A DNA stretch of 64,000 bases from Dysidea avara. Its lineage: Eukaryota > Porifera > Demospongiae > Dictyoceratida > Dysideidae. Positions 2,734 through 58,300 of this stretch are shown here, in pieces. How positions within the stretch are numbered: position 1 is the first letter of the stretch; each line of letters begins with the position of its first letter. The translations under genes and the position numbers were made by a program. The stretch spans positions 5,196,001 to 5,260,000 of the forward strand of contig NC_089274.1 in NCBI RefSeq assembly GCF_963678975.1, given 5' to 3'. The notes under the pieces are model-generated. The model was given only the letters and a program-made list of their open reading frames with translations. It was not told where the DNA came from and made no database searches.

Positions 2734-5700
2734 TGTAGTTTGTCAAAAATCAATGAATCTTGCTCAGAAGACATTTTCCACTTGTATGAAGCTCTTAGCC
2801 AGTCAAATTCATCTTGTGTTAATAGAACAAAGCATTTACTATGTGATAATCTGGACATTTGTTATAATACTTCTAATATAAAGTATATAATTTGTCAAAC
2901 CGTACAAGTAGAGAACTGCAGTGAAGAATGGATTATTGACAAAACTGAAGAGTTTAATTGTGATGAATTTGTCCAGTTGAAGTGTTCTGATCAATTTGTT
3001 CTAGCTAACAATGTCTGTCTACCACTGTGTGAAAAATTTTCATATTTTGGTGAAACATTTACCACTGCATATATTGTTCTCAATGGCATATCTAATGGGG
3101 TTAACATCATTAGAGGAATCGTTGTGGTGATTGTCTCTATTTGGAAAAGAAAGAAAATGTAATGCTATCTTTGTTGTTTGATTGTTGCATAACACTTTTT
3201 TGTCTTAATAAAGGTTTCTTTTCCCTCAAGTCTTGATAGTCGTAAATGCCATTATTATGACAACTGGATGTAAGTGTGTTTTAGAGGATAAACTTTATTT
3301 GTGGATGTGTGTATATGATTTTCCTGTTGCAATACAAAAGTGTTGGGGATGTTGATATCATGACTTGTATAGAAACTAAGCCAAAGTTTAGTTTGTATAA
3401 GAAGTCGGTGTGCCACACCAGTGTGTTATTAACAAAAAAGAGCAGTTTTCATGTATATGTGGCTTATATAACTGAATGAAGCAATTTTACGCTAGAGCTG
3501 GCTACATACAAAATTTCAGTGCATTGCCCAAGCCACTTGGGTTTTTCTTCTTATTGCACATTTTTACAAAAAAACCAAACTGATCACACTAAAGTTTAGC
3601 AATGGCAAGATTATTTTTCAACTCGGTGGAGTTATAACTGATTATTCATTTAAAAAGACTGATTTTCTGTCATGCCTAAAGGATAAACCACAGGAGGGAA
3701 CAAGTTGAAAATTGGAATGTGGATAGAATAACCATCATAGTGCAAACTATTGTAGTTTGAAAGAAATGAAGGAAAATAGACTAACAGCCATGGAGTTATA
3801 TTGCAAAAGCCAAACGTTTAATTGTAACAGCGTTTTGCTAATAAGGAACAGTTTGTTGTCATACCTACCAGGCATACCATGCACTTAAGGGAATATGTTG
3901 AAAATCAGTATGTAGCATTAATAATCGTAGAAGAGTCTTATAATGTAGTAGAAATTGAACCAAACATGTATAAAAAGTGTGCAATCAAGATACTTTAATA
4001 GTGCAGTCATCCTAACAGAGCATTCACTATCTCAGTTGCAAAAGTGAAACATAATATGTCAAATAAATGCACACAGTTAAAAATGTATAGATGTTCTTTC
4101 TGTTTTTGTGTAAGAAAAGGAAAAAAAGAAGTGATATCTTCACCAAAGCAGTCAAGCAATGAAGAAAAGAAATCAGAGGTGGTGGCTAAGAAATGATATG
4201 ACAACATCACCATGTCTTTCTTAAAATTTATTGACCTTAACATCATTGCAGCTATTTCTTAGCTGTCACCTTTAATTTCACAATATTTTTCACCTTAGCC
4301 TATTTGAGCGGTCACACAATGTAACTGTTTTGGTATAGACGAAGACACATGATAGTGTATTGTGCAGCCCAGTAAAGCTGGTGCGGGTGCACAACAGACA
4401 AGTGTGTATTTTTCATGCATCCAGAGCTCTATAGTTCCAGAATGGAAATTATCCAATTTTGTTGTGGAAACTTCCTCTGGGTGGGGCACCTTCTATTCCA
4501 TATTTGAGCTGAATCCTCCCAGCCATCACTGAGATATGCACCTTTAAAATTTATCCTTATTTTCTTTTATTTTTCTTCATACTCTTATTCTTCTTTTTGC
4601 ACCAATGAGAAAAATCACTATAACTCATGCATGCTTCAGTTGATTTACGTCAAATTTGGAGGACAGTGGAAGTGTCATATGACACATTTACAGTTCAATC
4701 TTTTTACAGACGGATAAGAACAAGCACAGTAAACTGCTTTAGGGAACAGGTTGAAAATTGGTTTGTAGATAGATTAACCATCAAAGAAGTGTCTTTTGGT
4801 GGTTGAAAAGAATCAAGATAAAAGATCATCAACTTATAACAAAAATGCCAACCATGTGTATCAAGCACGCGATCTTGTTTCATGGATAAAAAGCAATTTA
4901 TTGTCACACTTACCAGGCAAACCACTGAAGGGGATAAGCTGAAAGTTGAAATGTTAGTAGATTAATCATCTTAGAAAGGCCTTTCAGTGGAATAGAATAA
5001 TTGGTTTAAAACCTGTGAGTTGTAATGCGAAAACCAACTACCTGTAGCAAGGGCACAATAGAAATACTCTAGTAGTGCAGTCACCCTATTAGAGCAGTCA
5101 GCTACGTATTCTGTTAGAGCACTCACCATGGTACAAGTCACCCTGTAGAAAGTTCAACTATGCATAGCAAGTCACCCTGTAGAGAGTTCAGCTGTACAAA
5201 CATGTCACACTGTAAAGAGTTCAGCTATGAGCAAGTCACCCTGTAGAGAGTTCAGCTACCAACAAATCATCCTGTAGAGAGTTCAGCTACAAACAAGGCA
5301 CCCTGTAGAGAGTTCAACTACCAGCAAGTCACCTGTAGAGACTTCAGCTACATTTCAAGTCATCATTCAGCTATGTAACAAGTTGTCCAGCTACATTTCA
5401 AAGTACCCTGTAGAGAGTTCAGCTACAAACAAATTATTCTGTAAAGAGTTCATCTACATACAAACAAGTCACCCTGCATGTAGAAAGTTTAGCTACAAAC
5501 AAGTCACCCAGTAGAGACATAACAAGTCACCCTGTAGAGACTTCCGCCAGCGTTGAAACCGGGTCGGGTCATCCGGGTCACATTTTCTCCGGGTCACAAT
5601 TTATCCGGGTCTGACCCGGATTGGATCACGTGAGAAACGAAATTGTTCATTTGACGACGTGGAACTTATAAACTCTATCGCGCAGCTCTTTCGTGAGCCA

Positions 5701-8700
5701 CGCCCACTTATCGCATTACCAACATACGTTCAGCCACGCTCATTTGTTAGTAAGTGTAGCATGCAGCACGAAATTGAGGGTATCTATGGTGAGGGGTAGC
5801 TATTGTCAGTAGGTGAAGACCTTTTTTTTTTTTTTTTTGGTCTTCAACCTACAGCTAGGCTGAAGTTTAGGGACCCGCCGATTATGCTGGCATAATTTTG
5901 AGCAAAATAGGTACCTAAAAGCATTGAGCATAATGCCAGCATAATAGGTTAAATATTTGTACGATAGTGTAAATTCTTGCTGGAAGAATGACAATTGCAA
6001 AATAAGATCGATATACTCTAATAGAGCAGTCAGTAACTCTAATAGAACAATCATCAAACTGACTGTTCTATTAGAGTATATCGATCTTGTCTCTTACATG
6101 CAGGCATGCAGCAAGAATTTATTACTTGTGTTCCAGCCACTCATTTTTTTCTTTCTATACAGTGTTAAACTAGTAGCAAAGCATATGAACTAAGGCATGA
6201 ACATTGAGCATAATCGAGCATAATAGGTAAATATTGAGCATTAATTTAAGCATAATAGGTGAATTTTTGAGCAGTGCAGCATAGCATAATAGGTAAAATT
6301 ATGAGCATAATCGGCGGGTCCCTACTGAAGTTGCAATATTTACTCAACACGAATCGAACGCTCAAAATGTAGACTCGTTCGCTCACTCGAGACTAGCCGA
6401 AACACGTCTCGGCTTTAATTAATCCGGGTCAAATCCGGGTCAGTGGGTCATCCGGGTCAGCAGTAGTGACCCGGTTTCAACGTTGACTTCTGCTACGTGA
6501 CAAATCACCCAGTAGAGAGCTCAGCTACATTACAAGTTGCTAGTAGTAGTAGTGAGTGATTTGTAATGTAGCTGAACTCTCTACTAGGTGACTTGTAGTG
6601 TAGCTGAGCTCTCTACTGGATGATTTGTCATGTAGCTGAAGTCAGTAGAGACTTCACAAATCTCTCTGTAGAGAATTCAGCTAAACTATAAGTCACCTAG
6701 TAGAGAGTTCAGCTACATTACAAATCACTCACTGCTACTAGTGACTTGTAACATAGCTGAGCTCTCTACTGGGTGATTGTACGTAGCTGAACTCTCTATA
6801 GGGAGACTTGTAATGTAGCTGAAGTCTCTACTGGCTTCAGTTACATGACAAATCACCCGGTAGAAAGCTCAGCTACATTACAAGTTGCCCAGTAGAGTTT
6901 AAGTACCTACATTACAAGTCACTAGAGAGTTCACCTACGTACATTTACAAGTCACCCAGTAGAGAGTCTGCATGAGCTATATTACAAGTTATCCTTTCGG
7001 TACATTGTAATATTTATTGACAACTGTAATTTACAAAAATAGTTCAAATTAATTATTTTTCTCTTCTGTTCTTCCTACAGTAAAGAAACAAGTAAAAGTC
7101 AGCCCCAAAACTGAATTGTGGTCGGTTTTGGGACTTTTAATTACATAAAGAAGTAATATCTGCCAAAACAGCCGAGCTGTGAAAAAGGGTGTGGCCCAAG
7201 AAGGCCAGGGTGAAAAAAGTTGTGAAATGCCAAAAAATTACTGCAATGATGCTAATGTCAATCATTATTAGTGACGAGTGATCATTGAAAATGATTGACA
7301 TTAGCATCACTTCAGCCATTTCTTGGCTGCTCACAACTTTTTTCACCTTGGCCTTTTGGGCTTTCTTGCCCAACAGTATCACCTAAAAACAGCCTCACTT
7401 TTCCTTTGTAACGGCTTGGCAATATTGGTTAGGCATAGCCAAGCCCATATATGTCTTCAGACCACTTCACTTTTCAGTAATTGATTGTTGGGGCACACAT
7501 TCAGACGCAACATTTATTTTATGGCATGCCTGGTGCCACTCTTTCTTTTGATGTAGTATGCGAGGGTTCAGTAGTCATAATCATGCTGTTAAAAAAGTAG
7601 AATAAAAATTTTTAGGTTGGATTAGGGATCAAAGAGAAGCAAGGTGATGTTGTGCTACTTCTAAAAACCAGACACCATGCAGCAAACAAACCTAAATGGA
7701 ATTAATTAAAAGTGTACTAAACTAATAATATTGGGTTTTGCTTTGTTGCTACATACACAATTGAATCATAGTAATTTGTATTTTGTAATTGATAAAATAT
7801 TTCATAATTCTGCAATTATGTTGCTAAGCACTGCTAAGGAGGCGTACCCCAAACAAAACATTTTAACCCACTAATAATACACAGAAGTATCTTCTTAACT
7901 GTTTTAATTGTCTATAACATTTTCTTACGCAAATTCTCCAAGCAAAACCTCAAAGCTGCTCTTCATTTGTATTTGCGTATGTACGAGCACACCCCCTTTT
8001 CATCTCGAAGGAATTCATTATACCCGGTAGCCTAGGAGGCCAGCTGTGTTGTTTTTTGGCTGTTTGACGTCTGTAGAGCCCTTGGGTAAGGTCTTCACCA
8101 CGTCCTTACAAACTCGTTTCACCTGTATTTCAAACCGGCACGTATTAACCGTCTTAAACCAAAGCCTACCTGCCCAGAAGTTTAATACAGGCTCTATATA
8201 GGCAGTTTAATGCAGGCTCTAGGTGTGCGCCCACAGCCGGCCTTTGGCCAGCTGTGGGCGCACACCTGGTTTAAAAATAAACTAGTGAAACAAGGGAAGA
8301 GTTAAAAAGTAAGAGGTTGTCTATACCTGCAGATTACTAATGGCCATTTAATCCCTATGCTTCAGTCTATAACTATGACTGAATTAGGGATTAAAATAAT
8401 ATCCATTAGTATATCTGCAGGTATAGACAACCTCTCTTGTTTCACTACTTTTTAGTTATTCCCTTTTTTCACTACTTTCTTTTTTTCCTTTCTTTAATCC
8501 CTAATCCAACTTAAATTCCTAATTTTTTCTTCTACTTGTATATTGTATACACTTAGTATCATATGGTACGAGTTTTGTTAAGACTACACTATAGATAGAT
8601 TTGTTAATGCTCTGGGACCAAGAACTGTAATTCTAAGAAGAATGCATAGAGTAAATAACTGCTTATTGCTGTTATATATATAGTTTGGTTGTTGTTCTTG

Positions 8701-11306: not shown

Positions 11307-14300
11307 TGGGTGTGTGTGTGTGTGTGTACCTATCTATTATGTTTGTCTGTATGCACCCACGTGAGCAATGGTAATAGCAGCCTGTACATAAGAAGTATAA
11401 GCTAAATGAAATCTTTATTAAACTTCCACACAGGTAAACTTTGCTCTGAGTTGGTTTGTGGTCTGAAATATGGGTGTGGCAACTCTCCTCAGGCTTTGTG
11501 AACTACCTTCCCTTCTGGTTTTACTGGCATTTAGCAACTGAAAAACAATGGTGCAGGCCTTATAGACTATCAGGAATAGCCTATCCCTTTAAGTTGAAAG
11601 GGGGCATGTCACATATGTACGCGTACAAAAATGTAGGGAAGGAAGCCTTGTGGTTTTGTCAAGAGAATTTATGGAGAAGGCACGATAGACAAGCTATAAA
11701 ACAGTTGAGAAGATACCTCTGTGCAAAATATGTTGATTAAAGCAGTTTGTTTGAATAGTGCTTCCTTTGCAATGTAATAAGAAAATTACAAATAATTCAC
11801 TAATACGAAACAACAACTTATTGCATTATTATAAAACAAATAATAGCATAGCATATAGCATTAATTTATACACTGTTGAGGCTATAGCTATATGTAGCTG
11901 CATGCTACCTGGTATTTTAGAAGTGGCACAACATCAACTTGTTTTCCTACAGGTAACAGAAGTACTAGATTTTAAGAGACATTTGTTTTGTCTATCTTTT
12001 ATTTTCCTACAGTTAAACAGAAAAACTAGATTTTAAGAGACATTTGTACTGAAAATAAGTTTTGGATTATTTTAGTTGCTGAACATTGCATGTATATGAC
12101 TGCTCTATAAAGGGATCTCAAAATGTGCTTGGTATGGTTGGTTTAACTTGTTGATACTTATTTAACAGGTTTCCAACATTACTGAAGGTTTGTACCTTGA
12201 TAGTTACCTGACATGTGTGAAACAACTAGTTTGCATAAGTAGTTAGCTGGTTCTCGATCACATAACTCTTATGTTTGGTATGTAGCCTGTCTACTTATTC
12301 CAAAAAAAATTTTGTGTAATACTCTAATAGAACATACTGATACAACACGCATAGAATGTTCTAGAATCTCCATGGATGGGTGTATAGTAAACTAGAAAAC
12401 TTCCATTTATAAGGTAGAAATTAAGTAAGGTGAGCAACTGAGTCAAACTGACAGCAGTGGCAGAGTGGTAAAGGGTTTAGGTGTATAGGTGTGGAGGTCC
12501 CTGGTTCAAACCCTGAACCAGATTTTTTTGATGTTTTTTGTGCACATTTTTTTAAATTTCTTTGTGACTGTTCTATTAGAGTATCTTGATTGTGCTTGTT
12601 TCACATGTTTGGTTATATCTTCTTACCTAATACTCTCATTGCAAAAAGTTTGCACTACAATAGTTACTTCATGTACAGACCAATTTTCATGCTATTCCGT
12701 CAAGCGGATTACTCTGTAAGTGTGTCAACAAATTGCTTTTGCATTTTTCAAAAATCATGCATAGTTCCCCTGTTCTTAATCCAATCAGTACGAAAATAGA
12801 ACTATAATTGTGCTGCATTATGCTTGTACTGCCCTCCAAATTTGAAGTAAATCAACTAAAGCACATGCAAGTTATTGCGATTTTTCTAAAGTGTGTGAAA
12901 AGAAAAATACGTAGATTACATAAGAAGATTAAGAAGAAAAATATAAAGAAAATAAGACAAATTTTGAAGGCACATATCTCAGTAATGGCTAGGTGGAATT
13001 GACTCAAATATGAATAGGAGGTGCCCTACCCTGAGGGAGTTTCCACAGCAAAAATGGTTAATTTCTGTTCAGGCACTATCAAGCTACGGATGCATGAAAA
13101 CAGCATTTTCTTAGTTCCTGAAAAATACACACTTGTCTGTTGCACGCCAGCACTGGCTGTACTTGGCCGCACGACACACTATCACGTGTCTTCGTTGTGA
13201 AATATCTGTCTCATAAATGATATACATTTTATCTCATTTTCGTTAGTACAAATACTACCTGTTATTTAGATTGTATAATTATCTGTGTTTGATTATTTTT
13301 ATTATGTTTGTAGGATTTATATTAACATCTGGAGTGACTTTATACTGTATGTTCTTGCAGGTGTATGTGTTCCATCTCTCATTGAGATTACTATATCCTG
13401 TTAAATCACACCAACTTGACCAGTCAGAATACAGTGGAAAGATTCACACTGTTGAAGTTATGTGTGTGTTCATTGTGGGAACTGTGCCATATCTGGTTCT
13501 TGCTGCAACATCCAAGTTTCAGATAACTGTGTTTCCTCCACTGGGATGTGGAGTCTCTGCAGCATATAATTTTTATGGTGCAATTGTTCCAACAATTTTT
13601 CTAGGATGTACTAGTCTTATTCTAATGTTGATTGTGCTTTACAAGATCCACATTGTAAGTTATTTACATTTTTATATACATAGATAAGTTAGGGCCAAGG
13701 CATGGCACCTTTTTGAAGGAGATAGTTACAAAGTCTGTTTGCACCTCCAGTTAAAAATAGTGATGTTACTTACAGGTTTTTGCAATTGAATTCGTCGCCT
13801 TTGCGATTGAATTCGTCCCGTTTGCAATTGAATTCGTCGGTATTGCAATTGAATTCGTCCCGTTTGCAATTGAATTCGTCCCGTTTGCAATTGAATTCGT
13901 CGGTTTTGCAATTGAATTCATCGGTTTTGCAATTGAATTAGTCGGTTTTGCAGTTGAATTAGTCGGTTTTGCAATAGAATTCGTCGCGTTTGCATTACAA
14001 TTCGTCATAAACAAAACGGCTCCAAGAAACCAACCCGTTCATTAAGAGATGAACCATTTATGCCTTGGAGAGTTACACTTGCGACACTAGAAAGTAATTG
14101 GAGCTGGTAGTACGCGAAGTTGATAGCTGTCTGACAAGTTAATTAACTTGCTCGCGAGTGACCACACCCATCGCGAATGGCGTAGTAGAGTTTGGAATGT
14201 TGCTGGATAGGCTGTAGAGGAAGAATTATTGCCTTATAAAGAGTTGTTTACTACTGTTGTACTTGAACAAGTTCTTGTAGCAGCTGCTACATCATGTTTT

Positions 14301-17300
14301 CGTGTTTCCTCCAGCTGCCATTCTTGTTATGGACGAATTTAACTGCAAAACCGACGAATTCAATTGCAAAACCGACGAATTCAATTGCAAACGGGACGAA
14401 TTCAATTGCAAAAGCGACGAACTCAATTGCAAACGGGACGAATTCAATTGCAAAACCGACGAATTCAATTGCAAACGGGACGAATTCAATTGCAAAAGCG
14501 ACGAACTCAATTGCAAACGGGATGAATTCAATTGCAAAGTCGCAGAATTCAATTGCAAAAACCTGTAATTATGGGGTCACCGTTATTTTTGTTAAACATG
14601 TCAGTATGTCAGTTATATACACTTGTTGCTAAAGGCTGTATCCTCACACTTAGTATTGCACAGGTGTTAACCCACAACACAGTGAATGCATGTGTACAAT
14701 TGACGCAAAAGCTAGGTTCCGTTTAACTCTTGGTCGAGGTATCCTACCAGCCTTGACATCATGGTAGGTTGACTGTGAAGTCTAAGCCACACACCTAATT
14801 TGATCAAAATCGTTCCAGCCATTTCCAAACTATGGGTAGCCAAAGTTTTATTATTTTGTCTTTGTTTTTTTTTTTCTTCTTAAGGAGTTAACATGCAGGA
14901 TTTTGCACACTTTGTAGGAATCACTATTAAATGCAATGCAAACATTTTTTTCCACAAATAAAGAGCATCAAACAGTATGGTAGTACTGTTTAAGTAGGGA
15001 TTGCCCTTAAAATGATGCATGCCAACTAAATTTCCGCTATTAAAAATCATCCTAGAGACATTTTACACAATGAAAATCACTTTACAGAATAATATTAGTC
15101 CATTTAACATCAAATACAACATTAAAGACAAGGAAACACTTACAGGCGGCCAGATATAGATTTTTTTTTAAATTGCCAAAACTCAAATTTTTTTTCTGCT
15201 GGCCTGTCTGCCTGCCTGACCACAGTCACAAGGCTGGAGATCAAACGAAGCAGTCAAGCATGTATGGCCACCATTTTATGCCACAATGACAAACTCACCA
15301 GTGGCATGCATCTTTTGGGGTTCCGAAAGTGTGTGCCAACTGTGCCTTGTCTTTCCTTTTATCTTCAATCAAACTGGTTGTCATCTTCATGCAATGAAAC
15401 CTGTATCAACACTTTCCTTGAGCAGCATATTTAGATGCCACAAAATTATTTAAAGCGCTTACGCTACTGTTAAGTACTGGATATACCCAGTAGATACCTG
15501 TAACTTCATGATAGGTTCGAGACCATGCCCATTAACCATCTTGGTTGATTAATAACAATCGAGTGTGCACCTCTTAACAATCTATTTACTCAAACACAAT
15601 GACCACACACCCTTATTAGTTGTATTTATAATAATAGCACAGTGAAAATAAGCATGCTCCATTGGCTGACTTTAGCTACTTTAGTACAGCAATTACCCTA
15701 ATAGAACAGTCACACGTGTATAGCTGTATGCTATAACAACAAACTAGTATATACTTTAAAAAATGAAGTAGGGTTCCAAGTGATGAAAAGTAGTGAAAAA
15801 AAGAGATGAAAGATGGTACGTATTACAGCAAAGCTCAGTGGGAAAATCCTTACTTTGGCAATACACATAATAATTGTGACCGTCTCAGCAAAAACCCGAC
15901 TTGTTCGCATAAGCATGTGTATTGAGAAAATCAAATTTTAAAAAATTTGGAATTACGCATGCTACAAAAAATAACACAAGTTTTTATCATGCCATTACTC
16001 AGAGAAGGAAGACTCAAATTGATTGAAACTATACACCATCTTATTCACCTGCTCATGGAGAGTTTGAAAAGTTTGTTTCATTTGTGTGTATCATATGCAT
16101 TGGTTTACGATGCAGTAAACCTAAGCAAGATTGTCGTCATTTCTTCAACTAAACCACCTTCATACCCATATGTGTAAGTGACTACAGGGCTAACACTATA
16201 CCTTGGGTGATTTGCTAATCCATAGTAAACATTTTAAGCCAAATTGCAACATTGTAGACTAATGAAAATGGAAGTTATGGCTGTGAATGTAAGCGCCTGT
16301 AGTTTATTTTCAGTATAGTCACTGTACAAATCGATTATCTTGCTCTTCCTATTGTCTATAGCACTATAATTCCAAAACTACTCACCATAGAAGGCTGAAA
16401 GTTTGGTGATCCATTCCTTGGACACTGCAGATAATGCTGAGAAAATATAAAAAAATTCAGAAAGTGTGTGAACAAGTCAGATTTTTGCTGAGACGGTCAC
16501 AATTGTTGTAACATATACCAATGTAAGGATTTTTTCACAGAACTAGCTGTAATACCATCTTTCATCTCATGTTTCACTACTTTTTATCACTTGGATTACT
16601 TCACTTTAAATTAATAGTTTTTAAATATACTCTATAAATGAAGTTATGTACCAAGTTTTGCTACAAATCCAATAAACGTTCACTGTGCTATATGGACATT
16701 TTATTTGGGTAAAATGATTGATCTGCTACAGGGCAACTCACTTCTTGATAAATGGCATGTACACATCATAGCAGTGATAGTTTCAAAGAAATCTTAGTAC
16801 CAGCTACAGAGTTACAAAGCGAAAACCAAAGAAATGAAACATCGTAGGGCCAAAATACTCTAATAGAACAGTCATCACAGGGACTTGGCATAGATTTCAT
16901 GTCTTTTTTATATACTCTAAAGCTGGCCATAGGCCTATATTTCTTCTTATCTACAGGCACAGCAATGATACAGAAGTTACAATTGTATTATTTGTAATAC
17001 TCTAATTGAGTGCACATTATTTGAGGACTTCTATCTGGTGAACAAACACATACTACATCAAAGGAAAGAATGGCTCCAGCCAGACATAACGCACACCCTG
17101 ACTATCAATTACTGGAAAACGTTATTGCCACTTCACTTCATCTTCAGCTTTGTTCCACCCATTATACAGCATTAAAAACAAAGAACAGTGCAATCAGTGC
17201 CTCTGCAATCAATCCAGTCACCATGGAAATTGTGATTGTACGCGTGCCCCAACTATCAATTACTGGGAAGTAAACAGCTATTCTGCTTTGTTTTAAGATA

Positions 17301-20184: not shown

Positions 20185-20559
20185 ACAGCTATATAATCTA
20201 TAATCAAGGACAAAACTAGCTATAGATAGAAACATTTTATTAGTATGGCATATATACCTAATATATACCTAATATTAGAGTTAAGAGTAGTGTGACTGCT
20301 CTATTGGAATCCCTGAATGCTCTATTAGAGTATATCGATCTTTTGCATTAAAAAATAAGTGTCTTGCTGGGTCACGTGCACTTAAGCACCTGTAATATTA
20401 ATAATAGTCCTCATAAACTAGGGTTTCAGGTTTGCCATGCGGGCGCGTGACCAGAAACTAAGGTTTGACTTGGTGTGCATGGCCTAATATATCCTGGTGA
20501 ACATATTTAGTCGCTAGAATGCCGACCTCTGAGTCTGAGCTTTGGCCGGGCTAAATTTG

Positions 20560-24303: not shown

Positions 24304-25163
24304 TAGGGATGCGGTGATTATGCTAGCATAATTTCGGGAATAATAGGTATGTGTGGGAATCAGGAATTATGCTAGCATTCTGAGGTGATTATAAAGCTTT
24401 AACAGTAGGAAAATATGCAAATTGCACAATTCCGTTAAAAAAAATCGAGATACTCTAATAGAGCAGTCAGAAACTCTAATAGAACAGTCCAGGGGCGGCG
24501 GAACGGGGTAGGAAGGGTAGGCAAATGCCTACCCAACTTTTAGTGGTAACTATTGAGCCATGTTCCAAGTCCATAGAAAGCAGTCTGGTTGCTCTGATTT
24601 TTTAGGATCGCTTTTGGTTATTATCACTCGAGATACTCTAATAGAACAGTCATCGATACCCTAATAGAGCAGTCAGTGGCTATTCATTCCATTAGACTAT
24701 ATTAGCTATGCATTATTTTATAGATGTGAAATTGTCTCCAGATTCAATCGCAGAAAGCAATTTTTCAAAAAATTTCTGGAGCTGGCCTAAGCATGTTGCA
24801 AATGCTGGTTGTGATTGCACAACTATGATGCTGGTGATGGTCATAGAAGTATGATCTTACAGTTGCCTACCCAACATGTAGACGCTTCCTCCGCCCCTGC
24901 AGTCACTGAATATTTACTGTAACAAAGCAGTCATACTGAAACAAAATACTCTAATAAAACAACCAGCTAAAGAATGCAAGAATATTTGAAGCTTAAACAT
25001 CAATGAAAATGGTCTGATACAGCAATTAACTGGCATTATTAGCCAATTATAGTAGCTTAATTTTGGGAATAATGGGCAATTCTCAAAAGCATAATAGGTA
25101 ATTTTTTGAGCACTGCTCAAAAGCATAATGCTCAAATTTTGGAGCATAACAGCCTCATGCCTA
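24304..25163. mobile_element. hAT-like element with exact 8-bp target duplication, hosting a second insertion
   Basis: The left end TAGGGATGCGGTGATTATGC is mirrored by an imperfect right end closing in CTCATGCCTA. The flanks are ATATAGCT at 24296-24303 and 25164-25171. It has the same AGCATAATAGG-type body as 5868-6324. A younger CAGGGGCGG-ended element occupies 24490-24899. It is non-coding. Confidence 0.87.
24490..24899. mobile_element. CAGGGGCGG-ended element, exact 5-bp target duplication (nested)
   Basis: It begins CAGGGGCGGCGG and ends CCGCCCCTG. CAGTC flanks both sides (24485-24489 and 24900-24904). The subterminal regions mirror each other (GGTAGGCAAATGCCTACCC near the left, TTGCCTACCC near the right). 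It carries the CTCTAATAGA motif twice near 24627-24670. The 5-bp duplication suggests a hAT subgroup (hAT5-like), by inference. Confidence 0.83.
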
Positions 25164-25171
25164 ATATAGCT

Positions 25172-26540
25172 TCCCATGGCCCTGGGGTGGATCTAGGGTT
25201 TGACAAGGGGGGCGCACCATGACTATAGGGTAGCGTAGGTAGCAGTATAAAGCAGGGGGTCTGGGGGCATAACCCCCAGAAGCTATAGGTATTTTATGTT
25301 TCAGGACTGAATTTTTGATGTATAGAGTAGTTTTTTTATGCACAAATATATTAACTTTCTAAGTGGTCTACATTGATAAAGAGCTGCATGCATGTAGGGA
25401 TCAGTGGCAGTCATGAGTTCAGCTATGAACTTATGACCATTTTGTGATGCCAGGGTTTTGATGTGCAATACATCTACCCTAATGTGAGAGAAGCACACTA
25501 ACACTTCATTTTATAATTTTAGTAAGATTTTACAGCACAAGTGCTAAACGTCTGCAGAACACTTGGTCCTACAGACATTTGAAAAGTTGCAGAAAGGAGA
25601 AAAAATTCATGACTGGACCTGGGTAGCCTTGATCCAGTAGCCATCGGCATACAAAGTATGCCTATGTAGGGGGTCGTGGGACATGCTCCCCAGGGAAATT
25701 TTTGGAAGTTAAATCCTCTGGGAGATTCAATTTAAAGAGTTTATCAAATAATATTTTACTGTTGTATTAGGGTGACTGCTCTATTAGGGTATCTGGATTT
25801 GCTTGTCCAGATTTTGGAACCTCAGAAATCCCCCAGACTGAGATATACAAAACAAAATCTGTCTTGTCTGCATGCTCCACCCACTCCCTAGAGATAAAGG
25901 GATTTTGAAATTCTGGTACTCTTGCCAATTCCTTAATATTCCTTTGGTTGACTTTATAGAAATAGCAGTGATTACAGTTGTCAGTGCCCCCAGATGTAGC
26001 TAAATGGTGATGAAAAATGTCTTATTGATTACGACAAACTATACAATATAGCTACAGGGGCCTAGACTCAGGGGTATTAAGCTCTCAGGGGTGGATCCAG
26101 GGGGTTCTGTGATTTCCAGATCCAGAAACCAGTCAAGTATATTCAGACAATTTTGCATTGATTTGCAAAGCGGCGTATCAAAGGTTTAGATCAAAATACT
26201 GTGATTTTCTAAGTTACTCTACACAGTCTAAAATCATATTTCAAGAGTGTTTAAGACCCCCAGAATGGCATCCATATTTTGTTGTATGTTTCATACTTCA
26301 CATAGCTCTACCTCTAACTAGCCTGCTTGTGATACTATGCCAGCCTATACGAATCATGTTAAAATGTCAGTTTTATAGATTAGAATACAAAATTTCCTGT
26401 TGAAGCAAGCCCCTAGATTTAAGCCATGATTTAAGTGTATACGTGCAACAGAAAATTTGGAAAGCTGTCCGGCCGGCACCAAAATTAATGAATCCCGATA
26501 TGCAACGGGAAGCAGGCGCTTATAACCATAGCAACCGTGT
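25172..26540. other. Intergenic stretch with weak repeat traces, no supported gene
   Basis: Only scattered repeat marks are visible. These are CCTGGGGTGGATCTAGGG near 25180 and CAGGGGTGGATCCAGGG near 26088, resembling decayed CAGGGGCGG ends, plus an inverted copy of the CTCTAATAGA motif at 25770. The 81-residue open frame near 26158 shows no recognisable domain. Confidence 0.4.
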
Positions 26541-28244: not shown

Positions 28245-29131
28245 CAGGGGCGGATCCGGGGGGGGGGGGGGGCTTTGGGGGCTGAAGCCCCCCCTTCATA
28301 TTTAGGCTTTACTTGATCAATATGCTGAGTATTATAATGAAATTTTGTCTTAGCATAATTATATGATCACTAATAATACAAATACTCATAAAACCACCTT
28401 ATAAACATCTTTCCAAGGTATTATCAGTGGATTTATGCTAAAGTTTATGCAACAAGGACCCGGATCAGCATTGGAGGTGTACAAGATCGAGATACTCTAA
28501 TAGAGCAGTCAGCTAACTACTCTAATAGAACATTCACTGGAAACATGTAGTTGGTTCTGCTATGGAATTTTTCAAATCTGCCTGCACCTATACATACAAT
28601 GAAGTGCATTGGTCTGTTTAAAGGGCTTCATTCATCTACTTGTGTAGTTAATATGCATGGAAATACTTAATTCAGGTACACAATTTCCATTGAAATGCTC
28701 TCAGATTCAATCTTGTATTGTTCAAATTTCAAACTTTTCCACTTTCAACATTCTTATTCTAACATGCATGCACCTAGCTATTCAGTGTTGCATGTGTGCA
28801 ATTATGAGAGAGGTACATCATGTACTTGGTTGTCTGTACCTACCCAAACTTTTCCATTAGCAAAATGCTTCAGAGAGCCATACCTATAATCTAAAGGCAG
28901 TATATAAAATATCTACAGGCAGAAAATATTATGAATTTTATGTGGAAATGTCTCCAATTGCAGTATTTTAGCATCTATTTTTCAAAATTTTCCTGGGGGG
29001 GCATGCCCCCAGACCCCCCTAGTTCCAGCATGCTTCGCATGTTGGGAAGTGTGCTTTGCACACCTCTACCCAAGAGATTAGTACCTTGAGTTAGCCCCCC
29101 CCCCCTTTTATAAATCCTAGATCCGCCCCTG
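28245..29131. mobile_element. CAGGGGCGGATCC element, copy A, exact 5-bp target duplication
   Basis: It begins CAGGGGCGGATCCGGGG and ends GATCCGCCCCTG. The flanks are CATAA at 28240-28244 and 29132-29136. Its sequence is nearly collinear with copy B at 32010-32893, including the double CTCTAATAGA motif near 28488 and the GGGGGGCATGCCCCCAGACC block near 28996. It is 887 bp long and non-coding. Confidence 0.9.
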
Positions 29132-31404: not shown

Positions 31405-33329
31405 CATACAGTAAGACATGCCTATAATGGCCACCTTCAGGTTGCAGCCTTACTAGACAGGTATTATATGACAGAAAATTTGACAGAAGAAAAACCTGAT
31501 GAGCACAAATATTTTGTCAAAGCTGATGAAGTATGAATTTGTCAGCATTTCTTTCCAGCAAAGTTCCTGCTGTATGGTAGCTGCATCAAATTGTGGTTTA
31601 CTAAGGTCATCAGTATACAGGTGGACACCAAGGCAGGTTCCATTGCACTACCATGACTAATGGTCACCTGTTCAAGCACTTTAGTATATCATGCCCCATG
31701 TATTAAATGATCTTCCCCCCCCCCCACACACACACACACACACAGGGATTTGACAGTTATATAATGACCATGGCTAGTGTCACCTCCTGACAATAAGGGT
31801 CTGGTGACATGCTATAGGAATGCTTGACAGTAATTACAATATATTACATTAACTACACATTACAAATTTGTGTGACGTACATTGATGATGGAGGATATGA
31901 TAAAAAGTGCACGCGTTGGGAGACTGTGACCAGAACAGGAGACAACAATAAATAATAAACTGAATTCTAGTCATACCAAAATAACTGACACAAGAGGCTA
32001 TCTAGAATCCAGGGGCGGATCCAGGGGGGGCTTTGGGGGCTGAAGCCCCCCCCCCTTCATATTTAGGCTTTACTTGATCAATATGCTGAGTATTATAATG
32101 AAATTTTGTCTTAGCATAATTATATGATCACTAATAATACAAATACTCATAAAACCACCTTATAAACGTCTTTCCAAGGTATTATCAGTGGATTTATGCT
32201 AAAATTTATGCAACAAGGACCCGAATCAGCATTGGACGTTTACAAGATTGAGATACTCTAATAGAGCAGTCAGCTAACTACTCTAATAGAACATTCACTG
32301 GAAACATGTAGTTGGTTCTGTTATGGAATTTTTCCAAATCTGCCAGCACCTATACATGCAATGAAATGAACTGGTCTGTTTAAAGGGCTTCATTCATCTA
32401 CTTGTGTAGTTAATATGTATGACAATACTTAATTCAGGTTCACAATTTCCATTGAAAATGCTCTCAGATTCAATCTTGTATTGTTCAAATTTCAAAATTT
32501 TTCACTTTCAACATTATTATTCTAACATGCACCTATTCAGTGTTGTGCAATTGTGAGAGGGGTGCATCATGTACTTGGTTGTCTGTACTTGGTTGTCTGT
32601 ACCTACCCAAACTTTTCCATTAGCAAAATGCTTCAGAGAGCCATACCTATAATCTAAAGGCAGTATATAAAATATCTACTACAGGCAGAAAATATTATGA
32701 ATTTTATGTGGAAATGTCTCCAAATTGCAGTGTTTTAGCATCTATTTTTCAAAATTTTCCTGGGGGGGCATGCCCCCAGACCCCCCTAGTTCCAGCATGC
32801 TTCGCATGCTGGGAAGTGTGCTTCACTACCTCTACCCAAGAGATTAGTACCTTGAGTTAGCTCCCCCTTTTATAAATCCTAGATCCGCCCCTGGAATCTG
32901 ATTGGCAACCAATGAATTCCATGTGTCACTACCAAGATTTTGTATTGCATGTCACCAGACCCTAGGGTGAGAGAGATTACACCCCTGGGACAATGACAGT
33001 TCAAGTGAATTGTATAAGGTCATTAAACAAAAGTCTTAGTAAATAAATAAACAATTCTTAGGAGGAAGGGATTCAGTAACTTTCTTTGCCCCAGTAGTGG
33101 GGAGTTTGACACTAGCCAGTGTTGTCCCTTAATGATATGATCCTGGGGTGGGGCCATGACATTGATAACTGCATACACAGATAAAGGACCCCTATTATCA
33201 GTGGTGCCCAGAGCAATACAACATATATAATTATAGGATATATAGTTGTAAGACAACCAGCTGGAGTAGCAAGGAAGACGCCTAGAGAGCACCTAGCGAA
33301 TTTATCCATTAAAGAAGCGCTTAAACAGG
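31405..33329 (-). repeat. Right arm of the ~1 kb inverted duplication, with an insertion
   Basis: Read on the minus strand, it is collinear with 26541-27562. It starts at TGTTTAAGCGCTTCTTTAAT (33329), and the left copy's GT-plus-G run appears here as a C-plus-AC run (31716-31744). Copy B of the CAGGGGCGGATCC element (32010-32893) interrupts it at the site corresponding to GATTC in the left arm. Confidence 0.85.
32010..32893. mobile_element. CAGGGGCGGATCC element, copy B, with paralogous empty site
   Basis: It begins CAGGGGCGGATCCAGGGG and ends GATCCGCCCCTG. The flanks are GAATC at 32005-32009 and 32894-32898. The left arm of the inverted duplication has the uninterrupted sequence near 26960 (AATCAGATTCTAGATAG) with one copy of this 5-mer. 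This proves both the insertion and the 5-bp duplication. It is 884 bp long and non-coding. Confidence 0.93.
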
Positions 33330-34949: not shown

Positions 34950-35261
34950 CAGGGGCAGATACAGGGGGGTCAAAGGGGGCTCTTGACCCCCCTCCAAAAT
35001 TTTTTAGTATACCAAGATCGAGATACCCTAATAGAGCAGTCACTCTAATAAAGCAGTCACAGTATTAGAACAGTGTGTAGTGAGCTATTTAAGGATTTTT
35101 GTGTATTTTATCAACTATAAATGCTTGATTGATAAGGTGAGCAGCTATTGCCAGCTGGCTGTGACCATTTTTTTTTGGTCTCACCTTATCAAACCAGAGA
35201 CAATGTAGTACCTCAGTTCATTTTTGCCCCCCTCCTTTCCATAAGTCTGGATCCGCCTCTG
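34950..35261. mobile_element. CAGGGGC-ended element, exact 5-bp target duplication
   Basis: It begins CAGGGGCAGATACAGGGG and ends GGATCCGCCTCTG. The flanks are CGTCA at 34945-34949 and 35262-35266. The interior (35010-35190) carries the CTCTAATAGA motifs, then AGCTATTGCCAGCTGG and a TTTTGGTCTCACCTTA end. This interior closely parallels that of the otherwise different element at 35540-35892. Confidence 0.85.
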
Positions 35262-35394: not shown

Positions 35395-35955
35395 CTGTCC
35401 TGCAGCAGCTTTGATCATGTGGGTGGACACTTTGTTATAGTCAATAAATGCTTCCCTTATCCCCTTGACAACACAGCCATTCTGAGGCTGGAGAAGTACA
35501 TGGCCCTCACAACACACACCAAGATGGTAACAACACATCCAGGGCCGCCCACAGGGGGGGACAACTGGGGCATTTTGCCCCGGGCCCCAGCCTGAAAGGG
35601 GCCCCAGGAGGCCCCATGAAGGGCCCCCTGAATAACTGTTTAAAAGATCGATATACTCTAATAGAGCAGTCAGATCTAAATACTCTAATAGAGCAGTCAC
35701 AGTATTCTTCAGGGAGCAGTGTAGCAAGCTTATAGATAAGGAGATATGGTTGGTGATGGGTAGTTATTGTCATTTCCAGCAGGTTGTGACCTTTTTTTTT
35801 TTTTTTTTTTTTGGTCTTCACCTTACAACTTGGGTCAAGGGCCCCACTTTAACTCTTTGCCCTGGGCCCCTTAATTTCTCTGGGCGGCCCTGAACACATC
35901 ACCACACCTACCTTTATGGTCCATGCTACCATTCCAACTGGGCTCTGTAGTAAGG
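35395..35955 (-). CDS. Two exon-like pieces of an unrecognised minus-strand gene
   Basis: On the minus strand, 35955-35912 (acceptor GAAG, donor AAG|GTAGGT) encodes LLQSPVGMVAWTIK. Positions 35505-35395 (acceptor GTGAG, donor CAG|GTGAGC) encode 37 residues including GCVVKGIREAFIDYNKVS and HMIKAAAGQ. Both are phase 0 at the join, so they would splice in frame across an intron that now hosts the hAT element 35540-35892. Composition is protein-like and amphipathic. Flanking exons were not found on either side, so this may be a gene fragment. No family is recognised with confidence. Confidence 0.35.
35540..35892. mobile_element. hAT-like element CAGGGCCGCCC, exact 8-bp target duplication
   Basis: It begins CAGGGCCGCCCACAGGGG and ends TCTGGGCGGCCCTG. 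The flanks are AACACATC at 35532-35539 and 35893-35900. The interior contains two CTCTAATAGA motifs (35645-35700), a GTAGTTATTGTCA block and GTGACC-T(n)-GGTCTTCACCTTA near 35788-35825. The ends differ from the 34950 element, but the interior is shared with it. Confidence 0.9.
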
Positions 35956-47429: not shown

Positions 47430-48810
47430 TTAAGTCACATGGGATGGTGATAATGAGATGGTGAAGCTAAAAATAAGACAATAATGAGATCTGATGGTGA
47501 AGCTAAAAGTTATCACATTTAGTTAAATAAACAAAGCCATACAAAGAATGTGTATTAAACTAAAGTATAATCTGTTTCCCATAATATAAGATGGGGTTTA
47601 TACCAAAGTATAAGATAGTTAGTATAATGCAAGACTATACTGAGATTATTTGTGTAGTTTAAGCCATTAGATATACCATCTTATATTCCTCTTTTTCACA
47701 GTGTATGCTTACGCCACATGCTTAGTCAAACATTTAATCTTATAAATTATTATTCTGTGACTCAGCATTAACTCCCACAAGATTACATAATGCAAGATGA
47801 AATACAACTCAATTGACTATATATAGAGAATTGTGGAATCCTTGCAATACAGACTTGCTATTGTTTCTAGATAGTAATGATGTGACACAAAGAGGTTATG
47901 CCATTAACCCATTTCCCTTGACCTCTAGCATATCAAAACTTTCAACCACAATAGGACATCTTGGTTCCTCTGTATTGACATGTACACTATAGTGTCAAAA
48001 CATAGCCTATAGTTCTCAATATAATGTATTTGGTAGACAAGAGAGATGAGAAATCATCACTGACGTCTATAGTAATATCATTGTCATCAGGGAATGGAAA
48101 CAGTAGAAATGGAAAACGGAAATGGTCAAATTGATAATCGTCATATAAATGTACCCTAGAGTAAAACACTTGTTTAGTGGCCACCTCTTAAAGACCACCT
48201 TTGTAATAATAGTGAAGTTCCAACCATCTCTTCTATTTCATGAACTTGCTAAATTTCACTTGCGTGGACTATTTTAGTATGACACATTCTAAGCAATGCA
48301 GGTATACAGCCAGATGACTTGAATGAAGTATGGACTTAATATGGGAGATGACATTGGTCCCTTTCTATGAGTCAAGAAATACGTACATGTTTGGAGCTTA
48401 TCAAATATTACCATGTAAAGAGGTGGTCTTTATAAAAAGGTCTTTTAGAGGTGGCTACTAACCGAAGTACATTTCGTACGTTTTGCATTTCCATTGTTTC
48501 CAATTGCTCATTGTCATCCAGGCCAGTAATTTGTGGGAGAGGTCTTGTTACTGGACCAATTTCTAGATTTATTTTGGTGCCTAATCAGTGAGGATCCCAA
48601 ACTCATTGGGCCCTGAGTGTGTTCAGATAACCAAATAGTTCAGATATACTCTAATAGAACACACACATTAGACAAAATACTCTAACAGAACAGTCACCTC
48701 CACAGTTTGGATAATCAATGGCTGGAAAATTGCGGGACCACTGTAGAAATATAATTAGCAAGGTACACAATCTGTCAGTCCTGGCATGCGCTGGAAATAT
48801 TTCAGTACAT
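47430..48810. other. Intergenic stretch, scattered motifs only
   Basis: AT-rich. Two CTCTAATAGA/CTCTAACAGA motif copies lie near 48644-48700. No coding exon is supported, although the stretch lies immediately upstream of the pseudogene remnant and may hold unrecognisable parts of it. Confidence 0.35.
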
Positions 48811-50854: not shown

Positions 50855-52319
50855 TCAACTCACTTTTGCTCCTGCAGCAATGACTGCAAAAGTCTGCTTG
50901 ATACAGTCCCATAACATCGTATCATAAACCTTGGGTAATCTAGATAGACACTCCCAATGTAGGTTATTGGCCTGCATAAGAAAATCTTGTGTGATGTATG
51001 TATTGCATAAAATTTATGTGGCATGTGTGTAGTGCATGCACACACTAGCCTGATTGTCGCTTTCACAAAGAGAAGCTAATGTGTTCTTGACAACAATGGC
51101 AGTTAAGTATGCTTGATCATGAGATAGCTGATAGTGTATGGCAATGCAGTCCTCAGTTATCTGTACCCTTGTTTATCCAAAATTGGAAATGACTGTTATA
51201 TTAGAGTAAACAGCTGTGTGTTATATTAGAGTATTTCATAATAATTACGATGTTAGATTGCTTTTGAGTGAATTAGTAGTTGGAATGTCAAATAACGAGA
51301 GCTACTTATATGTAGCTATGAGACAATTGTTGGACAGTTAATATCCGAGTGGAACAAGTTGATTTAATTGTTACAATAGTTGCCTTATCGAATACTTATA
51401 GACCATTGGGGTTCGGATAACCAAGGGTCGACTGCAGAGCAATATGTCACCCTCAATATGACTCGAAAAGAATTCAAGGGAATACCACAATTGCAATATA
51501 GTAGTCAATGGGTATTCAAACATGGCAAGCCCACATGAATTGAAATGAACTACACAATGCACTTTAGTGATGCTAATAATATTTCATGTGAGCCAAATGA
51601 AGTTTGATGAGGTTTGATAGATATTCGAATTCTACTGTATTTACACTTTACAATGGAGTAAATTTCATGAAGAGAAACAAAGCATTTTAATTATGAAAAA
51701 TACAGAAACGACAATGTGTGGCAGTCATCAATTTGCCCCAAATTTATCAAACAATTGTCTGTGGATGTATCCCTATAAAAAAGTAGTGTAGAAGAATCCA
51801 TTATATTTTAGTAGCACTAACGATCTTCTCATGACCATTTCATGTGGGCTTGTCCTATCCAAACACACACACACACACAACACACACACACACATTATTC
51901 CTAACCAAATAGACTGTGGATAGTATTCCTGCCAGTGGACTCTCTTCTTTATACACTTCAGGAACTCCTCCTTGAAAAGACTGCACACTCCTGAGGTATT
52001 TACCACTATCTTTGAGCACCTTAACATAGTTTACGTGCTAATAGTAAGACAGATGGCCCAGAATTTACTCACCTTTTTCAATTTAACAAAATCTGCTGTT
52101 ATGTCTAGCATTTCATTGTTGACGATAACACTATTGGCTGTTTTCAATTGATTACATATTTCTGTGTACTACAATTATGTAGAAATGTACGTATAATATC
52201 ACCACAAGGAAAAAGACACTCACTCTCTCAGAAATACTTTTAAGCATTCCAAGACTCTCATCCATACCATGAGTGACACTGCGAATAGTATTGGATCCTG
52301 TTTTCAAGAAGCCCATTAT
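50855..52319 (-). CDS. C-terminal helical region of the kinase (exons 13-17)
   Basis: Five in-frame exons follow the kinase core. They are predicted mostly helical, e.g. DESLGMLKSISERYTEICNQ, then MLDITADFVKLKKVLKDSG, ITEDCIAIHYQLSHDQAYL and LPKVYDTMLWDCIKQTFAV. They end AAGAKVS at TGA 50857-50855. The last GTGAGT is read through to the stop rather than used as a donor, since no later exon was found. No known C-terminal regulatory domain is recognised. Confidence 0.6.
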
Positions 52320-55300: not shown

Positions 55301-58300
55301 TACAGTTGAATATGTAAGTGCTGTATAGTACAGTACGGCAGTACTGTGTATAGTTAGTAGGGGTCTTCAAGGCTTGGGTTTTCCTGCCCATCCAAAAATA
55401 GCCTCATTTTTCCTTCAAGACAGCTTGGCAGCATTGGTTAGACATAATCAAACCAAGAGCGACCCCACGCTTACAACAAATTTCTATGGGACTCTTTCAG
55501 CAATTTTATTTTCTAATAACTGACTAACTGATGCCTTATAGGTCAAGCCAAGCCCAACTCAAGCAGAACTCAACTGCAACAGGCTTGATTTCTTCACTGT
55601 TCACCGCTGCTTATGCCCTTTTCGTCTATTTCAGCAGCTACGATTGATGTTCGGATAAGCAAGGATCCACTGTACAAAATAGTCTTCTGTACTTAATTGA
55701 TGGGTATAAAATTTGTTTGAATTAATTAGTAATAGTGGGGCACCTGACAGTACTTTAAGTAGGGATCCCCCCAAAAGTGATGAGCGCCACCTAAAATGCC
55801 GCCTTTCAAAACCACCATAGAGACATCTTACGTGATGAAAATTACCTTTATGGAATAACATTAGTCCATCTAACACCAAATACAGAATTAAAAACAAGAA
55901 AACACAGGCAGCTGGATATAGAATCTTAAACAAATCACCAAAACTCAAATTTTCGTCTGCCCGCACGTCTGCCTGACCACAGTCGCAAGGCTGGAGGCCA
56001 AATGAAGCAGCACATGGCCACAATTTTATACCACAATAACAAACTCAGTAGTGGCATGTGCCTTTTGACGATCTGAGTCTTATCTTTCCTTTCATCTTTA
56101 ATCAGGCTGGTCATCTTCTCCTTGATGCAAAGAAACCATATCAAGGCATTAATTTTCCGTATCAACACCTTCCTTAAGCAGCATATTGAGACACCACAAT
56201 TATTTAAAGTGCGTACACCTGTAACTTCAGGATAGGTTCAACACAATGCCCATTAACAATCTTGGCTGATCAATAACGATTGAGTGTGGGGACCATACCT
56301 CTCAATAATCTATTTACTCGATCACGATGACCACACACCCTGTTATTATTGGTCTAGCTGCATTTATAATGCTAGTGCAATGAAAATATGAAATAGTGAC
56401 ATGCCCCCTGGTAGGTGAAGACCGACTGGAGATACTCTAATACAGCAGTCACCCTAATAGAACAGTCACACTTATATAGCTGTATGCTATAACAAACTAT
56501 ATAATATATTTTTAAAAATGTTAATTTAAAAATGAAGTAGTGATCTAAGTGATAAAAAGTAGTGAAACAAGAGATAAACGATGGTATTAGAGCATAGCTT
56601 GGTGGGAAAATCCCTACTTTGGGAATGAACAAAATGATTGTTATAACATACCAACAAGAGTTAATAATAAGAGAGGAGAGTGTCTAACGCTGTATAGGCC
56701 TGTAATAGATGATTGCACAGAAGTTAAACGGCTTCCTTTCCGTGTAACGTATAGGCTTCTAGTATTTGTTCGTTTCCTTACCGCAATTAGTTTAGCCACA
56801 CCGTGATGAATCCTCGAGAATATTCGAAGACTGAACTAAAGACTGAGCTGTATGTACAGGGAACAGTGCTCCTTCAATTGAAGAATGTTCAAAGGTAGGG
56901 TAACATGGCGATGCAGTGAAAATTCGAAGCAATACTCCGCCTTTGGTTCATTGTTTATTGGTTTCTCAGACGCTCTCCCCCAGAGTTATCTTCGAGGACA
57001 CTTCTTTACGCAACAGAGCGATGCTCTTCGTGGTGAACTTGAACATCGAGTTGAACGCATGCCCTTTGTCTGGGATAGCCTTTGTGGTTAAATGCAAAAA
57101 TATACTAGCCAGTCTGTACGTTACGCGGAAAAGAAGCCGTTTAACTTCTGCGCAATCATCTATTACAGGACTATACGGCGTTAGACACTCTCCTCTCTTA
57201 TTATTAACTCTTGATACCAATGTAGGAATTTTCCTATGCTGTTATACCATCAATCATCTCTTGTTTCACTACTTTTTATCGTTTGGATTTCTACTTCATT
57301 TTTAAATCAATAAACTACTGGAAATATATTGGAAATACATACCTATAGTAAATATCAACTTTGTTTTTCACTGAATACAAATGAACTCTTGCTTAAATGG
57401 CTCAAAAATAACCAAGGAAGCATGATGACTAGTCTACCATCGCCATATTATCAAAATACTGTTTCAATGCTCAAGAGAGAATTTATGTACCGTATACATA
57501 CAAATTTTCGAGGATAGACAATTTTGTGGTTTTATTTTAGAGGAACGCTGTTTTTCAATGATGTTACCTATTAGAAAGCATAGAGCTAACCCTGATATAA
57601 TTGGTAATTTTCAAGAAAATTTTGTGGACAGCCAAGGAACTGTGTCCCTCGAAAATTTGTACGTATATGGTATACTAACCATGTAGCATACAGTAAGGAT
57701 AGTACACATACTGTACTAGCATACATATTACTGTTTGTAGAGCCCACGATAGGAAGAAAACAAACAATTTAATTGTACTTTCTGATTACCTCCAAATTGT
57801 CATAATATTTGTTAAGTGAAGTTTCAATTCCATGTAACACACAGTATACAGTATGCTGTCGCTTCCTGGTAGCTACAAATGCAGCTTTTGCTCCAAGTTG
57901 TGGTACATCTACCTGTGGACAATTCAGGCAATCATTTAAAATCCTGATCCATTTACATACATTCATACTTCTTACCTGTATAGCATTCGGGTTTTTATTT
58001 GTATCTGAAATGTCTTGATCACAGCCTATTCCTGCAGTGATTAAATACATAAGTATCATGGACATAGAAAACAGTTCAAGTACATATTACAAAATTTCAA
58101 TGACAGAAATATTTGTCTTGAATATCTGATGCAAAATATTTCATTTTTAAACAAAATTGATCACAGCAAAATTTTTTTGACAAGAATATTCGAAGAAAAA
58201 CAGGCAAAAAAGAGGTATAGCTAACACAATGAATTTAGAACACTAGCAGCTGTATCTAAGGCTTGATTTACAACATGACATACACATTACCTTGCTACAT

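Follow-up and report, generated by a model that had tools for sequence, protein, structure and literature searches.

A short sequence motif recurs at very high copy number in the genome of the sponge Dysidea avara. It sits in small transposons whose ends are unlike and whose interiors are partly unlike. The motif differs less between element families than the DNA around it does, and the same is seen, less strongly, within families. Our tentative explanation is that it may act in cis in non-autonomous DNA transposons, probably as the target of a factor common to them, and that it is kept because it aids amplification. Under this explanation, a motif of about 29 bp, usually present in clusters of one to three, would serve as the site.

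Abundance and anatomy of the motif

The motif was first noticed in a 64,000-nucleotide stretch of the genome (the window), where the initial annotation counted at least 15 loci on both strands. Our scan of the window (up to 3 mismatches, both strands) recovered 33 matches against 0.11 expected, a number that none of 100 shuffles reached. When matches less than 90 bp apart are merged, they form 19 modules (Table 1). A genome-wide comparison with chance, suggested at the outset, gave 91,233 matches to the 19-bp motif at no more than 1 mismatch in 550.8 Mb (45,450 forward and 45,783 reverse), while the reversed-pattern control gave 0. For the 29-mer AAGATCGAKATACTCTAATAGARCAGTCA, up to 2 mismatches were allowed; 41,646 matches were found genome-wide (20,801 and 20,845 on the two strands) and 0 for the reversed control, with about 5e-5 expected from a uniform-base estimate.

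For more detailed analyses we used a 264-kb sample composed of the window and twenty 10-kb pieces (L009-L028) at preset positions. Matches with 0, 1, 2 and 3 mismatches numbered 28, 28, 23 and 21 in this sample, and the reversed control had 0 in each class. Since the window was picked by the finding itself, it is a biased piece, containing 19 of the 55 modules of the sample. The Roc/COR protein and reverse transcriptases detected in the analysis fit an animal genome. The commonest 13-mer by spread, low-complexity ones aside, was ATACTCTAATAGA (27 places). The exact 19-mer had 0 matches in viral contigs, and its extension by a leading A (a 20-mer) had 0 in genome contigs outside this genome. 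A distant blastn search of the element at 28245-29131 against phages gave no match, and no motif strings were found in paper text.

Table 1. Motif modules and host elements in the window (TIR, terminal inverted repeat; TSD, target-site duplication, length in bp in parentheses)
Feature	Position	Strand	Details
Module	6004..6088	.	motif 6014 +, second 6035 +, inverted third 6060 -; 31-nt inverted repeat
hAT-like MITE host	5868..6324	+	TIR TAGGGACCCGCCGATTATGCT, TSD CTGAAGTT (8)
hAT-like host	24304..25163	+	TSD ATATAGCT; split by nested 24490-24899; motifs 24451, 24472, 24915, 24947
Nested 5-bp-TSD (CAGTC) element	24490..24899	+	within motif of 24304-25163; own motifs 24634, 24657
Host, CAGGGGCGGATCC ends	28245..29131	+	TSD CATAA (5); motif pair 28493/28518
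Second copy of 28245 family	32010..32893	+	TSD GAATC (5); motif pair 32254/32279
Host, CAGGGGCAGATACAGG	34950..35261	+	TSD CGTCA (5); motif pair 35024/35041; has ~170-bp shared interior
hAT-like MITE, CAGGGCCGCCCAC	35540..35892	+	TSD AACACATC (8); motif pair 35654/35681; young family
Motif pair, 17-bp step	5065..5100	+	beside 31-bp motif-like minisatellite
Single motif, diverged	3991..4009	+	motif scan
Exact motif	12565..12583	-	tRNA-like head not detected
Motif with 3 mismatches	12320..12338	+	motif scan
Motif, same old family as 56433	15694..15712	+	motif scan and alignment
Exact single motif	16856..16874	+	motif scan
Motif pair, AAGATCGATA upstream	20293..20332	-	motif scan
Single motif	25773..25791	-	motif scan
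Motif pair, 31-bp step	48647..48696	+	motif scan
Motif pair, 25-bp step	51190..51233	-	motif scan
Motif pair, 17-bp step, older family	56433..56468	+	20 further copies fetched

Taken together, the window and loci L001-L028 contain 117 matches that fall into 65 modules; 55 of these lie in the 264 kb, at 16 of its 21 loci. Two or more motifs are present in 30 of the 55 modules, with a maximum of 13 in one. Steps between neighbouring copies (matches to 4 mismatches) include 17, 21, 23, 25, 27, 31 and 32 bp, and the orientation of such neighbours is mostly the same. In the module at 6004-6088 the second copy follows the first 21 bp on, and together with the inverted third they make an inverted repeat that is 97% complementary. 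An RNA hairpin or symmetric site was considered for the palindromic CTCTAWTAGAG and rejected, as mirror positions vary unalike (positions 3 and 10 vary, whereas their counterparts 11 and 4 hardly do).

With motifs masked, the flanks of the 65 modules resolve into 44 contexts. The corresponding Chao1 value of about 193 contexts is an overestimate, because some contexts are diverged relatives. Taking one site per context, we found that A occupies position -3 in 37 and position -1 in 35, and AAGATCGA-type bases precede the 19-mer in many copies. Conservation at positions -8 to -4 is moderate, weaker than at -3 and -1, and C directly follows the motif in 23 of the 44. Position 12 is A in 21 contexts and G in 23, never C or T. 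Because the scan pattern spans 0 to +18 and accepts either A or G at position 12, this absence, the conservation within 0 to +18 and the motif edges partly reflect selection by the pattern. The left edge has independent support in that the sequence upstream of AAGATCGA differs between families.

Such a variety of flank contexts is what a mini-element of about 30-50 bp inserting into other elements, one of the readings put forward in the initial annotation, would produce. However, flanking direct repeats show no excess (mean 3.42 bp for 64 modules versus 3.72 bp at 1219 control positions), and the spacers of motif pairs differ between families. We therefore regard this reading as highly improbable.

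Host elements and their shared interiors

Ends and target duplications proposed earlier for the window elements at 5868-6324 and 35540-35892 (8 bp) and at 24490-24899, 28245-29131, 32010-32893 and 34950-35261 (5 bp each) were confirmed. We also scanned the 264 kb without reference to the motif, using hAT-like ends and a duplication of 8 or 5 bp as the criteria. This blind scan returned 10 elements, and 0 in the reversed control. All 10 hAT-like elements have terminal inverted repeats with [TC]A[GA][GA]G ends. Their lengths are 191-887 bp, with one of 1417 bp, and most of these hosts would be too short to code for a transposase. The motif is present in seven (5868, 24490, 28245, 32010, 35540, L009:3754 and L015:2208) and absent from three (L010:1274, L024:6293 and L026:6261). 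Together the 10 elements account for 6,324 bp (2.4% of the sample) and hold 8 of the 55 modules versus 1.3 expected (p = 7e-5). Outside the window, only 2 of 5 hAT-like elements carry the motif, with 3 of 36 modules inside versus 0.6 expected (p = 0.023). These p-values, like all others here, assume independent positions and copies, which is not quite true.

Further window elements with exact duplications are those at 24304-25163 and 34950-35261. Exact 8-bp duplications flank 5868, 24304, 35540, L018, L009 and L015, and also L058, L062, L067, L068, L072, L073, L077, L084 and L085. Ends of the CAGGGGCGG type go with the 5-bp duplication, not the 8-bp one. A different kind of host is represented by L014:1522-1881 and L021:1536-1884, which have common 19-bp ends (GGCCAATGAAA..), TTA on both sides and three motifs each. 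By its TTA/TAA duplication and terminal inverted repeats, this element is a PIF/Harbinger-like MITE.

We then considered 500-900-bp stretches around 40 exact 29-mers in contig C1. Inverted ends with 8- or 5-bp duplications were present in 14 of the 40 (end types TAGGG, TAGGC, CAGGG and one CATAG type), three others were TA-flanked candidates that we do not trust, and 23 had none. This end scan had no control of its own. A related scan (14-bp ends, up to 2 mismatches, any type of duplication, over a wider span) picked up candidates at 59 of 300 random places, so an individual candidate is credible only with exact duplications and ends of a known type.

Where both ends could be located, nearly every host with an 8- or 5-bp duplication is hAT-like, and within family 35540 motif and ends alike are less variable than the rest. 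Both observations would be expected if hAT transposases themselves bound the motif as a subterminal or enhancer site, other superfamilies having merely captured it. However, several unlike end types and two duplication lengths suggest several transposases, and the TTA-flanked MITE holds three motif copies. On this evidence a site for hAT transposases seems unlikely.

Units of the GAGCATAATAGGTAAA type, possibly subterminal transposase sites, are repeated near the ends of TAGGG-type hAT elements (5868-6324 and 24304-25163 in the window; L011, L020). Candidates with CAAGAGTTCATA-type ends have a motif-free interior (window 61778-62127; L023:8380-8820; L024:8048-8348). The short MITE copies at L009:3754-3944 and L085 (C1:7609471-7610371) have a common duplication, TTAGTGGC, and an exact 120-mer, and may be copies of one larger repeat carrying the insertion. 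A Tigger/pogo host suspected by eye for the motif pairs at 48647 and 51190 was dropped, its ends being unproven. The tRNA-headed SINE that the initial annotation placed at 12566 was not borne out: ARAGORN found 0 tRNAs in the window and Rfam gave 0 matches at gathering score, tests that a strongly diverged head might evade.

The hosts had been described as unrelated. This holds only in part. An interior of about 170 bp is common to elements with established ends and different duplications, namely 35540 and L018 (8 bp) and L005/L049 (one and the same locus) and 34950 (5 bp). It starts with AAGATCGA and the motif and finishes with GTGACC-(T)n-GGTCTTCA. L055, L066, L069 and others, with ends not found, have this interior behind other upstream sequences, and L081 (5 bp) has kept just the motif pair and the T-run part. 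The right ends of 28245 and L005/L049 are alike and their interiors unlike; 35540 and 34950 have like interiors and unlike ends. Therefore, ends and interiors reassort. The reassorted combinations all carry the motif, but they were found via the motif. The 40 contig-C1 sites form 7 flank clusters, with 20 sites in the lineage of the ~170-bp interior, and in 6 of the 7 clusters (one representative checked each) a further motif copy (up to 3 mismatches) lies within 75 bp.

Judging by these alignments, some of the hosts appear to be diverged relatives that swapped ends around one ~170-bp interior. A single ancestor, which would undercut the idea of unrelated hosts altogether, is thus indicated for part of them and is not shown for the hAT-like elements versus the TTA-flanked one. 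The proposal that a module was captured repeatedly fares similarly: an interior shared by elements with unlike ends is in line with it, but this pattern resembles related elements that swapped ends or diverged rather than the uptake of a 19-bp piece. As to the palindromic composites that the initial annotation placed at 15687 and 56431, alignment puts loci 15694 and 56433 in a single diverged family (69.8% over 968 columns), and an inverted match adjoins some of the 56433-family matches.

A second shared part of the interior, poly-T between GTGACC and GGTCTTCAC arms, occurs at 5752-5865, 35053-35187 and 35693-35841 of the window and at L019:842-921. The matches at 5752-5865 and in L019 have no motif on the left side.

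Divergence of the motif and its surroundings

To compare the motif with neighbouring DNA, we took seven representatives of the ~170-bp lineage. Identity among them is 97.0% (387/399) for the second motif copy, 67.2% (1114/1657) for the remaining interior and 44.6% (257/576) for the upstream sequence. The first copies in L049-L088 were chosen as exact and therefore not counted; in L066 the exact chosen copy is the second one, and the unselected first copy is degenerate. For L049, L055 and L079, where the second copy played no role in the choice, the values are 57/57 versus 152/228, from three non-independent pairs.

A similar tendency is seen inside families. In nine families of two to six copies each, further motif copies are off the majority at 16 of 720 positions (2.2%) versus 268 of 3938 downstream (6.8%), and motif divergence is the lower one in all nine. 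When family 28245 is set aside on account of a rearranged copy, the counts become 11/607 versus 163/3179 (p = 1e-4). Family 35540 gave 2325 first-look candidates, of which the best-scoring 39 were used together with the window copy; they align at 95-100%. Among these best 40, the motif differs at 6/1920, the outer 15 bp of the ends at 2/1192 and the rest at 79/10240 (p = 0.024), a significance that is lost (p = 0.10) once two variable columns are dropped.

The older 56433 family behaves differently. Of the 20 copies fetched, 18 were counted; L038 (no module) and L047 (a near-duplicate of L045) were omitted, as was the window copy. The motif differs at 38/675 (5.6%) versus 208/3091 (6.7%) on the query side (p = 0.34), and versus 69/753 (9.2%) in the nearest 45 columns (p = 0.012). 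Upstream, 118/759 differ in the 16 alignable copies. The module has gaps in 4 of the 18 copies.

Overall, the motif seems to change more slowly than the surrounding DNA. The constraint appears strong when families of one lineage are compared, moderate inside young families, and weak or unclear in the old 56433 family. This pattern fits selection on source elements more than on individual copies after insertion.

A serious rival to a cis-acting site is neutral descent, in which most or all hosts trace back to a small number of ancestral MITEs with the motif already inside; ends were then swapped, interiors drifted, and the motif is merely what a motif-based search can still recognise. The ~170-bp interior common to elements with unlike ends agrees with such descent, as do seemingly independent contexts that merge on closer inspection, the little extra conservation in the 56433 family relative to the query side, and the low share of motif carriers among blind-scan elements outside the window. 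The last of these also counts directly against the cis-site model. The difference between motif and neighbouring interior within one homologous lineage, the lower motif divergence in every family of the nine, and the unlike ends of the TTA-flanked host speak against neutral descent, which we consider somewhat doubtful on balance.

Selection by the host itself is another alternative. Here the motif would serve the host, as a site for a chromatin or centromere protein or as an enhancer, and single copies would be kept by host selection. The very high copy number and the A/G-only position are compatible with such a function. Nevertheless, copies of the 56433 family decay at about the family rate and show the module gaps mentioned above, and much of the motif's copy number comes from young, mobile families and not from fixed places, which makes a host function very unlikely.

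A putative cis-acting site and its precedents

The interpretation offered in the initial annotation is partly supported. Of its three readings, a binding site for a common factor fits best, considering the lower variation of the motif relative to neighbouring DNA, its clusters of 1-13 copies at varying distances, and the restriction to A or G at position 12, where the scan pattern favours these two bases. We infer a protein-binding site because of the length, clustering and conservation of the motif. One factor common to many element families would probably bind it, the simplest candidate being a host protein. The several end types, the TTA-flanked MITE and the occurrence of two duplication lengths among hAT-like hosts would point to a host factor rather than a transposase. 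Motif-bearing elements would amplify better; such a benefit is likely because most hosts seem too short for a transposase and the motif lies within young amplified families. The motif may then outlast end exchange and interior drift because its carriers amplify better. Against the cis-site model, the motif lies at variable distances from the upstream end (about 70-250 bp, and more than 1 kb in L015:2208), and the motif edges coincide with those of the scan pattern. The weak results of the single-family comparisons in 56433 and 35540 and the degenerate first copy of L066 also count against it.

MITEs are usually assumed to need just their ends. An interior site kept across unlike ends and duplications would show that amplification also needs a shared interior signal, and a protein binding the 29 bp would offer direct access to the question of what lets certain non-autonomous elements become so numerous. 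A bolder version, in which one host DNA-binding protein is a common amplification licence and superfamilies converged on or retain its 29-bp site, strikes us as fairly unlikely; if it is true, new families with the site inside should succeed far better.

Among the papers listed in the literature searched, with subscription papers mostly outside its scope, we found none describing a motif common to MITE families of unlike ends. Queries on hAT elements and MITEs in sponges, and on MITEs with one interior behind unlike ends, gave no match. Internal sequences are reportedly needed for efficient mariner transposition, as Lohe and Hartl are said to have described in 2002. These provide the closest precedent, being likewise non-terminal, inside a DNA transposon and affecting mobilisation; however, they are sequences of one element, whereas here one motif is spread across many families and several end types. 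E2F sites are carried by MITEs in Brassica. The letters of the CENP-B box presumably differ from those of our motif, and motif sites, unlike that box, are dispersed within MITEs. The likeness lies in the concept of a short motif in otherwise unlike repeats (PMC5139131). Carrot MITEs have reportedly been linked with LHY/RVE transcription-factor sites (PMC13102513). In carrot and in Brassica alike, a short factor-binding motif is multiplied by MITEs. There the factor is named, whereas the motif described here is a putative site with several end types and duplication lengths.

In bivalves, Pearl-type modular MITEs and satellite-transposon networks connect MITEs with tandem repeats (PMC5139131). 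Repeats in both MITEs and arrays are a feature common to that system and ours, where a tandem array was seen in L013; the bivalve MITEs contain satellite-like monomers, whereas the unit we find is a core of ~29 bp whose spacers vary and which is combined with several types of ends. The array at L013:8074-8392 is an expansion of the motif with 13 matches, mostly at a 23-bp step. A 31-bp minisatellite (CAAGTCACCCTGTAGAGAGTTCAGCTACA-like) at 5133-5540 and 6556-6964 of the window resembles the motif unit and adjoins the motif pair at 5065-5100; similar sequence comes after motifs in L059, L021 and L023. The minisatellite may have been derived from the motif as a tandem repeat. Two further 21-bp tandem arrays, at 13778-14006 and 14332-14560 of the window, are inverted to each other, about 87% alike and about 325 bp apart.
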